From: Acidobacteriota bacterium
GTDB taxonomy: Bacteria; Acidobacteriota; Terriglobia; Terriglobales; Acidobacteriaceae
Reading direction: 5' to 3'
NCBI GenBank assembly: GCA_003225005.1
Contig: QIAN01000107.1
Coordinates: 62,001-126,000 of the forward strand
DNA: 64,000 nucleotides
Under the pieces are notes generated by a model. That model worked only from the letters and a program-made list of their open reading frames with translations. It was not told the DNA's origin and made no database searches. This document shows, piece by piece, positions 16,545 to 42,526 of this stretch (its first letter is position 1; every line of letters begins with the position of its first letter). The translations under genes were made by a program, and so were the position numbers.

Positions 16545-16582
16545 CCAGCGCTTTGGCGCGACTTTGCCTACATTCTCCGCGG

Positions 16583-16625
16583 CCTCTGCGGCATTTCTCC
16601 ACGCCCTCTGCGTTTTAAGGTTCTA
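16583..16625 (-). repeat. CTCTGCGGC-type spacer repeat
   Basis: The stretch has three near-copies of (T)CTCC(G/A)CG.CCTCTGCG: CTCCGCGGCCTCTGCGGC, then TTTCTCCACGCCCTCTGCG. It belongs to the same style of repeat as the CCTCTGTGTCTCTGTGGTG sequence at 41716-41750, which encodes part of a signal peptide. Here it lies in the spacer between phoR and phoU. Confidence 0.4.
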
Positions 16626-23309: not shown

Positions 23310-24092
23310 ATGATTCGTAGGTTCGCGATTGTTTGGGCGTTGCTCGCGGCTGCGACAGCGTACTCTCAGCAAACTCCAGCAGAAGAGCAGCCCCCAACCC
23401 AGCAGCCCACAACCCAGCAGCCTGCAACCCAGCAGCCTGCAACCCAGCAGCCTGCAACAGGTCAAGAACCACCAGAAGAAGAGACTGGTAGAAGACGCAA
23501 AGTGCGCCCTCACGACTACCTCAATTGGACTTTCAACGTAGGTGTCGGCGTCGGTTGGCCCAGTGGAACGACTCGCACGTATGTAAAGGGAGGCGGCGCT
23601 GTCGGCACTGCTGGCGTAGCTCGTGATTTTAGCCGCTATTTTGGGCTGAGAGCGGACTTTCTCTATGCCAATCTTCCACTCCGCTCTTCCGCCCTTGAGC
23701 TGGCTCAGGCGCCAGGGTCCCGCAGCCAAGTCTATGGAATCACCGTCGACCCTATCATCAACATTCCGGTCACGAAGTTGTACAGTGGATATCTTCTGTT
23801 CGGGCCAGGTTTTTATCATCGCTCGGGCAAGCTGGACTCCACCACGGTGGTTCCGGGTTCGTCCTGTAATGGCTTTTTTCAATGGTGGGGATCGTGCTTC
23901 AACGGAATTATCCCGCTGAACAGGAGCGTACTCAACTCCAGCCAGAATGAATTGGGGTTTAATTTCGGCGCAGGTGTTGCTCGGAAGATCCGCGGGAATC
24001 TCGAGGTCTACGGCGAGTTCCGGTATGAGCACGCCAAGCACATCGGTATTACCACAGACGTGCGGCCGATCACGATTGGTGTGCGCTGGTGA
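23310..24092 (+). CDS. Outer-membrane beta-barrel protein with Q-P-A-T-Q repeats
   Basis: The 260-residue protein starts with a signal peptide (MIRRFAIVWALLAAATAYSQ), followed by a low-complexity stretch at about 21-52 of four QPATQ-type units. A short basic segment (RRRKVRP) leads to a predicted eight- to ten-stranded barrel with alternating hydrophobic strands (NVGVGVGWPSG, YLLFGPGFYHR, VYGEFRYEHAKH) ending IGVRW, the aromatic C-terminus expected for BAM-dependent insertion. Function unknown. The closest pattern is OmpA/OmpW-like barrels of Acidobacteria. Confidence 0.75.
   Translation: MIRRFAIVWALLAAATAYSQQTPAEEQPPTQQPTTQQPATQQPATQQPATGQEPPEEETGRRRKVRPHDYLNWTFNVGVGVGWPSGTTRTYVKGGGAVGTAGVARDFSRYFGLRADFLYANLPLRSSALELAQAPGSRSQVYGITVDPIINIPVTKLYSGYLLFGPGFYHRSGKLDSTTVVPGSSCNGFFQWWGSCFNGIIPLNRSVLNSSQNELGFNFGAGVARKIRGNLEVYGEFRYEHAKHIGITTDVRPITIGVRW
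23393..23452 (+). repeat. Four 15-base tandem units in an outer-membrane protein gene
   Basis: The unit is (C/T)(C/G)CAACCCAGCAGCC, repeated four times with one to three changes, encoding QPATQ or QPTTQ. The last two units are identical at the DNA level, which suggests recent slippage and a length-variable linker. Confidence 0.8.
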
Positions 24093-40049: not shown

Positions 40050-41777
40050 TTACTTCGAATCTTCTGCCTGAATTTTGAAAGTATTATTCGTGGTATCGCT
40101 TTCCGGGATGCTGCTGTCGTTGACAACAGCTTCCCGAGGTGCCGCCGGAACTTCCATACGGATCACGCCCTTGTTCTTTCCACGCACCTCCAGCCGTTTG
40201 GTAACTTCGCCACCGAATCTTACGGTGACTGGCACTTCGGCTCCTGCACCTCCCAAATTTTCCACCGTGACGGTGACCATGTAGCCTTCGGTCAGCATTT
40301 TTCGCGGGAAAGCCGACGCGACGCGAAAATCAGGCAAGCCACGATCGCGATAGACCCAATCATCGAAAAACCATTCCAGATCACGCTGGGTCTGCGCCGC
40401 AATCAATCGAGGCAAGTAAGAAGGCTCTTTGTCCTGCTCGGGATGATACCCGGCCAATGCTTTCTTGAGCGCCGGTTCCCCGACCATATCCCGAAGCATC
40501 CACCAGACGTACATTGCCTTGCCACGGTACAACTCTTCACTCGCGGTATTGAGCAGCGAATGATCTGTTGCATCTTCAGACCTCGGAGCGAAATCCGGTC
40601 TTTCGGCGTCCAAGAATGCCGAGCGGTGTAGACCCATGTAGTCAAGCGCGGTCTGCCGCCCACTTGTCTGTTCCAGATAAAGAGCTTGCATGAAATGTGC
40701 GAGGCCTTCGTGGATCCACGGACGCGGCGAGGTAAACGCGGCGTGAGTCAAAGCATGCGCCAGCGAAATCTGCGCCAGCTTAAGATCGTCTCCCAGAGGT
40801 GTCAGCAGCAGATTGCCGCTCTCGAACGGAACTGCTGCGCTGCCGGGTAACTCGACCACTTGGGCTTCGGCTCGCGGCGGACCGAACCAGTTGGTAATGA
40901 GAGGAAGAACTTTGTCTGTGGCTTCGGCATAGCGCTCGGCTATCGATTTGTGCTCGGTCAGGCAATGAATCCTAACTATCCCGCGATTCAGTAGCGAATA
41001 GCTTGCAATGACAAAAGCCGGGATGGTTTGGCCCAGCGGTTGGAATGCACACTCGGCGCCGACCAACTGGCCTTGCCCTTCCGGCGGAGAAGTTCTTCTA
41101 CAGCCCGCCGTGTTAAGAATGATTTCCGGTGGCGCTCCGACACTCTCGCGCAGCACGTTTACGTGCAACTGCACCTGAGAGTCGGCTTCGCGACGCTTCC
41201 ACCGTCCAAGCGTATCGAACATGCTGTTACCGTCCGAGAGATTTGCGGCTTCTGTGGCTATTGGATACCAGGCGACGTACCCCGCACCGCGCACTGCGGT
41301 GAATTTGGAGCTGATCTGGTCCCAGTCCGTTGTGCGGGCTGCGGCTTCGGGCGTGCCGATGCGCGTGAGCCTTGTTGTATTGAGCGGGACGACGCCTTCA
41401 TAGGCGATCTCCAACTCAAATGTGCCCTTGGGCACGACGACCTGAGGCAAGCTCACAATCGCTTCTGACAACGCTCCGGTGTGATCCAAGTCGGAAGTAT
41501 AGATTTGCGACACAAACTGGAGCGGCTTTTCTCCGGCCTTGACAGAACGCCAGTCCAGTGAAGAAGAAATCTGCAGGATTGCGGTTTTCTGCGGCTGGCT
41601 TGAATCGTTCCGCAGCGCGACTCTGCCGCGGACTGCAAGCCGATGCTGCTCCGGTTCAACTTGAACGTTGAGATCGTAGTTGGCGAATGCAAAGGCCTCG
41701 CGCTCCAGGGAGAAAGCACTCACCACAGAGACACAGAGGGCACCGAGGAAGCAAAAGTGCACGACTCGAAAATTCAT
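40050..41777 (-). CDS. Secreted M1-like metallopeptidase with altered catalytic motif
   Basis: The 575-residue protein has a signal peptide (MNFRVVHFCFLGALCVSVVSA), an N-terminal beta domain (YDLNVQVEPEQHRLAVRGRV), a peptidase-like middle part, and a C-terminal beta-sandwich (VTVTVENLGGAGAEVPVTVRFGG). The middle has HALTHAAFTSPRPWIHEG where M1 enzymes have HExxH and a downstream xNEGFA: the histidines and second glutamate are kept but the catalytic Glu of HExxH is Ala, and the spacing to the next Glu is 11, not 18. So it is probably inactive as a standard aminopeptidase or a variant family. Part of the signal peptide is encoded by a spacer repeat. Its start overlaps rlmB's stop. Confidence 0.75.
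   Translation of the reverse strand: MNFRVVHFCFLGALCVSVVSAFSLEREAFAFANYDLNVQVEPEQHRLAVRGRVALRNDSSQPQKTAILQISSSLDWRSVKAGEKPLQFVSQIYTSDLDHTGALSEAIVSLPQVVVPKGTFELEIAYEGVVPLNTTRLTRIGTPEAAARTTDWDQISSKFTAVRGAGYVAWYPIATEAANLSDGNSMFDTLGRWKRREADSQVQLHVNVLRESVGAPPEIILNTAGCRRTSPPEGQGQLVGAECAFQPLGQTIPAFVIASYSLLNRGIVRIHCLTEHKSIAERYAEATDKVLPLITNWFGPPRAEAQVVELPGSAAVPFESGNLLLTPLGDDLKLAQISLAHALTHAAFTSPRPWIHEGLAHFMQALYLEQTSGRQTALDYMGLHRSAFLDAERPDFAPRSEDATDHSLLNTASEELYRGKAMYVWWMLRDMVGEPALKKALAGYHPEQDKEPSYLPRLIAAQTQRDLEWFFDDWVYRDRGLPDFRVASAFPRKMLTEGYMVTVTVENLGGAGAEVPVTVRFGGEVTKRLEVRGKNKGVIRMEVPAAPREAVVNDSSIPESDTTNNTFKIQAEDSK
41716..41750 (-). repeat. CCTCTGTGTCTCTGTGGTG repeat overlapping a signal-peptide coding region
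   Basis: On the minus strand the stretch reads TTCCTCGGTGCCCTCTGTG followed by TCTCTGTGGTGAGTG. It has the CCTCTGTG-type unit that recurs in spacers of many environmental bacteria. Here it is translated as FLGALCVSVVSA, the hydrophobic core of the signal peptide of the M1-like gene. Confidence 0.6.
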
Positions 41778-42526
41778 TTCTCACCCGAGGAATTTTCGCG
41801 GGCGCGCCTTTGCCTCACGATTTCATAAAGCACTACCGCTGCGGCTACGGAGACATTCAGAGACGATACTTTGCCGAGCATGGGAATCGAAACCAGAAAA
41901 TCGCACTTCCTCTTCACCAAATCATGCAACCCTTTACCTTCCGCGCCCAGAACCAGCGCACAATCCATGTTGTAATCGAGCGCGTCATAGGTCTGAGAAC
42001 CGCGCTCGTCGAGACCGACAGTCCAGAGGTTGCGCTCTTTCAACTCTTCCACCGTGCGCGCGATGTTGGTTACTCTCGCAATCGGCAGATGTTCGCTTGC
42101 ACCTGCCGACGCTTTGGTGACGGTTCCCGTGACGCTTGCGGCGCGGCGCTCTGGGATCACGATGCCGTCCGCGCCGGCTGCATCTGCGGTGCGGAGGATT
42201 GCTCCCAGGTTGTGCGGGTCTTCGACGCCGTCGAGTACCACGATGAGGGAGTATTGTCCTCGCTTGGCTCCGACGACGTCATCGAGATCACTGTATTGCT
42301 TCGCGGATGTGACCGCTACGACGCCTTGATGCGCGGAATTGCCGACCATGCGGTCCAACTCAGTTCGTTGCAGGAAGCGCATGGGCACAGCGAGTCGGCG
42401 GCAGTCTTCGATTAGACGCTGCAGGCGTAGGTCGTGACGCTCCTTGGCCATGCCAACCCACTCGAAAGCGCGTCCGCGGGCCTTGAGAGCTTCGGAGACG
42501 GCGTTGATTCCGTAGATGTAATGCAT
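41774..42526 (-). CDS. rlmB: 23S rRNA 2'-O-methyltransferase, RlmB/TrmH family
   Basis: The 250-residue SPOUT-fold enzyme uses S-adenosylmethionine to methylate a ribose in rRNA, most probably Gm2251. It has an N-terminal substrate-binding domain (YIYGINAVSEALKARG) and the three SpoU motifs: DPHNLGAILRTADAAG, LVLGAEGKGLHDLV and IPMLGKVSSLNVSVAAAVVLYE. The knot-forming C-terminus is complete. TrmH-family members are easily confused, so the exact target nucleotide is inferred. The stop overlaps the start of the next gene by 4 bases. Confidence 0.9.
   Translation of the reverse strand: MHYIYGINAVSEALKARGRAFEWVGMAKERHDLRLQRLIEDCRRLAVPMRFLQRTELDRMVGNSAHQGVVAVTSAKQYSDLDDVVGAKRGQYSLIVVLDGVEDPHNLGAILRTADAAGADGIVIPERRAASVTGTVTKASAGASEHLPIARVTNIARTVEELKERNLWTVGLDERGSQTYDALDYNMDCALVLGAEGKGLHDLVKRKCDFLVSIPMLGKVSSLNVSVAAAVVLYEIVRQRRARENSSGEK

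Follow-up and report, generated by a model that had tools for sequence, protein, structure and literature searches.

An arm of a dispersed palindromic repeat probably became the core of a predicted signal peptide in a gluzincin-like protein of an acidobacterium

The window analyzed here, a stretch of 64,000 nucleotides from the genome of an Acidobacteriota bacterium, carries a gene for a predicted secreted protein that lies directly downstream of an RNA methyltransferase gene (Table 1). The translated product begins MNFRVVHFCFLGALCVSVVSAFSLEREAF. No Pfam or NCBIfam family was matched by this protein, and the label "M1-like" is fair but weak, coming from a remote profile match in which a profile of 15 orthologues reached ERAP1-type M1 peptidases with a best E of 0.00099. 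The HExxH motif is absent from the focal protein, which reads HALTH at residues 341-345, and the other 29 aligned orthologues have HQxxH, with the catalytic Glu of the gluzincin motif lost. This loss across the orthologues suggests a genus-wide pseudo-peptidase. An AlphaFold model of the protein, made from a two-row alignment, had a mean pLDDT of 42.6 and was set aside. In a tree of the mature region, the longest end branch among the 30 orthologues (0.55) is that of the window's own orthologue, L012, meaning that the focal gene evolves fast in its own genome.

Table 1. Positions of the genes, the predicted signal peptide and the repeat-like units in the window
Feature	Position	Strand	Remarks
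Focal gene	40050..41777	-	575-aa secreted, gluzincin (M1)-like protein, from the ORF and its translation
Upstream SpoU-type RNA methyltransferase gene	41774..42526	-	Stop overlaps the focal ATG (ATGA)
Predicted signal peptide, residues 1-23, MNFRVVHFCFLGALCVSVVSAFS	41709..41777	-	Putative cleavage before LEREAF
Repeat arm CTCTGTGTCTCTGTGGTGAG	41719..41738	-	Encodes LCVSVV and part of S20
Degenerate further unit CTCGGTGCC	41739..41747	-	From the sequence and orthologue DNA
CTCYGCG-type units downstream of a gene	16575..16625	+	Site starts at 16575, CTCCGCGGCCTCTGCGG

The predicted signal peptide has a hydropathy of 2.62 over 12 residues, and a repeat lies within its core. The 18-mer CTCTGTGTCTCTGTGGTG is found at 41721-41738 on the reverse strand with no mismatch and in frame, encoding the LCVSVV of MNFRVVHFCFLGALCVSVVSAFS; the slightly longer arm CTCTGTGTCTCTGTGGTGAG differs by a single mismatch from the 20-mer CTCTGTGNCTCTGTGGTGAA, and the degenerate unit that precedes it reads CTCTGTGTC in several of the focal orthologues. 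With up to three mismatches allowed, the 18-mer has a single match in the window, where the expected mean is 0.01 and 1 of 100 shuffles had one. An earlier note on this DNA had recognized a repeat unit at this locus, correctly in view of the exact in-frame 18-mer, and had extended it over 41700-41777; of that extent, only 41719-41747 is repeat-like, which is to say codons 11-20 of the protein, and the rest is not. Judged from the reading frame, the repeat is the source of the hydrophobic core of the predicted export signal. All 30 orthologue loci share a hydrophobic stretch followed by cleavage residues and an LDREAF-type anchor, with S or A at residue -1 and A, G, C or S at residue -3. Because this layout is common to the 30 loci, a true start downstream of the repeat region, which the earlier note had named as a danger to its reading, appears unlikely.

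The same note had described further copies of the repeat in the window at 16583-16625. That site fits a relaxed CTCYGYG pattern only, as did 5 of 100 shuffles, so the copies do not hold up as such, and the site is at best a possible decayed relative of the repeat. Dispersal itself is evident in the genome as a whole, which contains two exact 18-mers and four copies of CTCTGTGNCTCTGTGGTGAA with at most one mismatch, compared to none for a reversed control; the signal is weak at up to three mismatches (11 matches vs 7 for the control). Elsewhere in the window, at 23386-23460, there are four direct repeats of AGCAGCCNNCAACCC type, spaced by 15 bases and lying within long open frames.

Compared across genomes, the repeat proves to be half of a palindrome whose arms face outward (TTCACCACAGAG...CTCTGTGNCTCTGTGGTGAA). 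Of the 37 genomes of the genus, counting that of the window, 33 hold copies of CTCTGTGNCTCTGTGGTGAA with at most one mismatch, as do 3 of 24 others; there are 0 to 41 copies per genome, and the reversed control gave none in any of the 61 genomes. An outward-facing partner (up to five mismatches) lies 39-199 bases off in 117 of 165 copies, while two copies have inward-facing partners and none has a same-strand partner within 260 bases; these counts cover 127 stretches, namely 29 loci, of which three belong to other genera, and a further 98 among the matches listed for eight genomes. Four elements fold strongly, with z-scores of -9.1 to -11.7. No Rfam family was found at gathering score in eight loci, and an 85-base element had no match in plasmid and phage collections, a weak negative because the query may have been masked by BLAST's filter for low complexity. 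Mobilization by a RAYT was considered and is unsupported, with a copy (up to three mismatches) near 2 of 30 Y1_Tnp loci, these being the best 30 of a longer list.

Copies with ATGAAR ahead of them were also sought in one genome per species, which gave at least 117 stretches. The matches listed come under titles from Acidobacteria, from Proteobacteria in the old sense (five classes), and from Chloroflexi, Verrucomicrobia, Planctomycetes, Nitrospirae, Cyanobacteria, one Methanothrix bin and others; as many of these genomes were binned from metagenomes, an individual case may owe its place to misbinning. Copies in this position are rare, occurring in 2 of 387 genomes in the phylum sample of the Verrucomicrobiia genome G061. 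Within the genus, in-frame copies that do not form signal peptides are present in protein genes with Pfam matches, including those for a RecA-like protein (L190), a phage-integrase-type recombinase (L217) and a PDDEXK_3 protein (L130). In the PDDEXK_3-type frames L130, L151 and L205, whose Pfam assignment is that of L130, the antisense arm is translated as part of the N-terminus (as TTESQRHRE or the like). Two genomes, that of the window (L006) and G002 (L048), also have the repeat in frame inside a gene for an ATP-dependent DNA ligase.

Translated in one of its open frames, the arm gives L-C-x-L-C-A-S-V-V-N, which amounts to a signal-peptide core. LCVLCASVVN has a mean hydropathy of 2.27 and the antisense reading TTEAQRHRE is polar (-2.48), meaning that read-through of a whole element gives a polar-then-hydrophobic order, as in L396. 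Grouped by frame, the 117 ATGAAR-preceded copies among the matches listed comprise 45 that read SVV, 39 that read LCLCGE and 33 whose frame is closed by a TGA. Sorted by the analyst, unblinded, and with L255 counted despite a cut-off frame and no Pfam family, the genes judged to encode secreted proteins number 8 of 45, 1 of 39 and 0 of 33, respectively (Fisher p 0.002, rising to 0.005 when the focal orthologue L327 is dropped). When copies with no stop between ATG and repeat are compared, the figures are 8 of 27 vs 1 of 33 (p 0.008, or 0.017 without L327). Several loci of this set were judged not to be signal peptides and were set aside: L319, L233, L294 and L239, which have no Pfam family; L312 (PfkB), whose start was placed downstream; and, by eye, L230, L293, L298, L323, L223, L264 and L220.

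Within the genus, 4 of the 19 copies preceded by ATGA among the matches listed are the focal gene or its orthologues, and the other 15 open frames of at most 47 aa. Away from the focal gene, the 165 genus copies include no clear single-arm signal peptide, and many copies near genes just lengthen open frames upstream. In L071, which encodes an FG-GAP protein in a frame cut by the contig end, the whole element may form a signal peptide. With this one possible case among 165 copies, capture is rare per copy within the genus, and the tally of copies at secreted-gene starts that the earlier note had looked to as a check is accordingly low there.

The focal orthologues have kept the repeat to varying degrees. 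The 20-mer lies exactly 30 bases upstream of the LDREAF-type anchor with at most one mismatch in 11 of the 30 loci, and in the same register with at most two mismatches in 13 and at most four in 16; three orthologues (L014, L015, L019) carry it without any mismatch, and the remaining loci have other hydrophobic cores, often LC-rich. Where a residue matches the one encoded by the repeat, the codon is the repeat's own in 136 of 179 cases, compared to 49.9 expected, with a naive z of 14.5 that is inflated because the orthologue rows are related; Ser in these positions is encoded by TCT in 15 of 19 cases (2.2 expected). In synonymous-site tests across all orthologues, the core stands no more than moderately high, the alignment window at column 14 giving 0.61 vs 0.45 for the median window, twelfth in the list, and in cross-clade pairs the core holds a modest rank of 14 among 548 windows for codon excess. 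When the comparison is confined to the 12 rows with SVV retained, the core leads all 567 windows in codon identity, and with a motif-matched subset taken for every window it is first of 284 (codon identity 0.815, excess 0.384), the best window not overlapping the core having an excess of 0.242. An opposite-orientation copy of the repeat (up to four mismatches) lies 2-4 bases past the focal stop in six of the 30 loci (L013, L015, L019, L021, L035, L040), with no such copy at that place in the other loci.

In the mature-region tree, rooted at its midpoint for drawing only, the SVV rows straddle a supported split, with L025 and L031 on one side and L012-L015, L019-L023 and L026 on the other. This distribution would fit a single old capture followed by decay, or repeated re-supply. 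We infer that the focal capture is old, dating to the ancestor of the genus as sampled or earlier, and infer its direction likewise. The search for the focal gene in 61 genomes gave strong matches confined to the genus and weak, partial similarity elsewhere; the same signal-peptide DNA in distant repeat-free genomes, which the earlier note held would speak against capture, was not seen there. No repeat-free outgroup for the focal gene came out of this search, so its capture is unrooted.

The same repeat is found in predicted signal peptides of other genes. Among sulfatases (PF00884), for which 14 of 30 loci were compared, two of them unreadable, L366 starts MKRYLIILCVLCASVVNS, the 88% identical L367 starts MKRCLIILCVLCVSVVNS, and the 76% identical L368 starts MKHITTLTITAAVLIGALRATAA ahead of the same PNVIVILGDDMG. 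More distant relatives (about 50%) have other starts, and two of these, L370 and L374, have LCASV/LCVSV-like peptides from non-repeat codons, meaning that such a peptide can arise without the repeat. A second, different sulfatase in the same genome (L406) has MKSILISLCVLCASVVNSVAAA, with no orthologues in 29 relatives at an E of 1e-130. The leader of L406 holds another unit, GTTAATCTGTGTAATCTGCGGTTC, part of which also precedes the L367 sulfatase and which perhaps represents a second repeat family.

Both palindrome arms are present in the genes for a PotD-like binding protein (PF13416) L396 and L397 (92% identical); orthologues at 68% and 55% have ordinary signal peptides and those at 79% and 76% other sequence at this place, with one of the seven loci, at 73%, unreadable with the anchor used. 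For an amidohydrolase, 16 of 20 loci were compared, six of them unreadable. L409-L413 (100 to 83% identical) have cores of SLCLCASVV type, already diverged in L412, and L414 (83%) lacks the repeat DNA yet has the residues CLCA-x-A-x-S in common, so it may be a decayed copy of the repeat form. Unrelated cores precede the conserved QDLT in L415 and L416 (67%) and in L418 and L424 (about 50%). Finally, in a zetaproteobacterial protein, L429 and L430 (77%) have a CTCTGTG form of the repeat and L431 and L432 (73-74%) a CTCTGCG form at the same place, while six other orthologues have unrelated starts and 4 of 14 rows were unreadable; the query genome has one repeat copy at up to one mismatch. With repeat-bearing and unrelated signal peptides side by side among the orthologues of the sulfatase, amidohydrolase, PotD-like and zetaproteobacterial genes, capture seems to recur. 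Because the repeat is restricted to the closest relatives and is dispersed, it would have been gained in these four cases rather than lost.

A signal peptide derived from a repeat is already known in print: the Yersinia RU-2/YPAL repeat is reported as part of the predicted YPO1552 signal peptide (Delihas 2007, PMC2759123; review PMC2229807). The present case resembles it in having a repeat in frame in the signal-peptide region and homologues with unrelated signals, as in the sulfatase, PotD-like, amidohydrolase and zetaproteobacterial genes, and is taxonomically far wider. As described in those accounts, RU-2 concerns a single gene, conserved between Y. pestis and Y. pseudotuberculosis, whereas several genes in several phyla are involved here; the sequence is also another one, and a single arm is often enough. 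The Rickettsia palindromic elements reported in protein-coding genes (Ogata 2000, as cited in PMC2229807) are likewise palindromic repeats in frame within conserved genes, but with another sequence and another host group, and the recurrent outcome here is a signal-peptide core.

In layout, the element is REPIN-like. It shares short palindromes, inverted pairs and a mostly intergenic location with REP/REPIN and GTAG/CGTC-tagged palindromes as these are described in PMC3733652, which also places some of them in genes for DNA repair, a DNA ligase of O. terrae among them, much as copies here occur in DNA ligase (L006, L048). It differs from those elements in that the ends of 13 pairs, judged by eye, are TTCACC/GGTGAA-like and carry neither a GTAG nor a CGTC tag, in that RAYT neighborhood is slight (2 of 30 loci), and in that the same sequence recurs in many phyla. 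A survey of Enterobacterales (PMC5952966) reports that whole N-terminal segments are gained or replaced among orthologues and that ISEScan found no transposable elements near the N-termini; here, in contrast, the replaced segment is a short repeat, and repeats of this size, which carry no transposase, would probably be missed by a tool of that type. A literature search for the DNA and peptide letters of the repeat, in which subscription journals were thinly covered, found no paper.

Taken together, these data make it probable that a dispersed palindromic element, captured in frame, became the signal-peptide core of the focal gene. The central claim of the earlier note, that a dispersed element was captured as an export signal, thus gains support from palindromy, dispersal, DNA-level keeping in orthologues and the parallel cases in other genes. 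The element would consist of two inverted arms of roughly 8-base CTCTGTGN units, spreading mostly between genes, and an arm that came to lie in the proper frame after a start codon would yield the L-C-x-L-C-A-S-V-V-N hydrophobic core, with the gene itself providing the basic n-region and a small-residue cleavage site. The focal copy would have been kept since the ancestor, decaying in some lineages and perhaps being re-supplied in others. Mobility of the element is presumed in this account, and export by the repeat-encoded peptides is predicted from layout and hydropathy. The broader proposal, that the cross-phylum repeat is a recurrent donor of signal-peptide cores, overwriting them repeatedly such that newer copies re-supply the core and its DNA is younger than the gene, is a more tentative one, to which we give slightly less than an even chance, with L414, L370 and L374 counting against it.

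Several other readings of the same observations can be weighed against capture. The repeat might be kept mainly for a nucleotide-level role, through structure in the RNA or DNA, or as a binding site close to the start codon, with the signal-peptide reading as a tolerated by-product; the codon identity of the SVV rows does exceed protein need, whole elements fold strongly, and six focal loci have the opposite-orientation copy just past the stop codon. We consider this unlikely, as repeat-free orthologues still show a hydrophobic core with unchanged cleavage residues, the counted cases in other genes are mostly in one hydrophobic frame, and re-supply by newer copies accounts equally for the codon excess. 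It is less probable again that LC-rich signal peptides use repeat-resembling codons by chance, with no capture at all: the exact 20-mers in three orthologues, the bias to TCT for Ser and the two arms in the PotD-like genes all argue against convergence, even though sulfatases L370 and L374 make similar peptides with other codons and the own-genome match at three mismatches is weak. Least credible of all is an annotation artefact in which the element lies merely upstream and the gene starts after it; many copies near genes do only extend open frames upstream, but the core and cleavage residues recur in 30 of 30 loci, repeat-free ones included, and the focal ATG overlaps the stop of the upstream gene.

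To our knowledge, the gain or swapping of signal peptides in bacteria is poorly explained. Capture of a hairpin repeat as the core of an export signal suggests one concrete route by which new bacterial signal peptides may arise. With a short repeat replacing signal peptides ahead of conserved mature domains in several phyla, the question becomes a countable one, the things to be counted being secreted-protein genes with repeat arms in the SVV frame.
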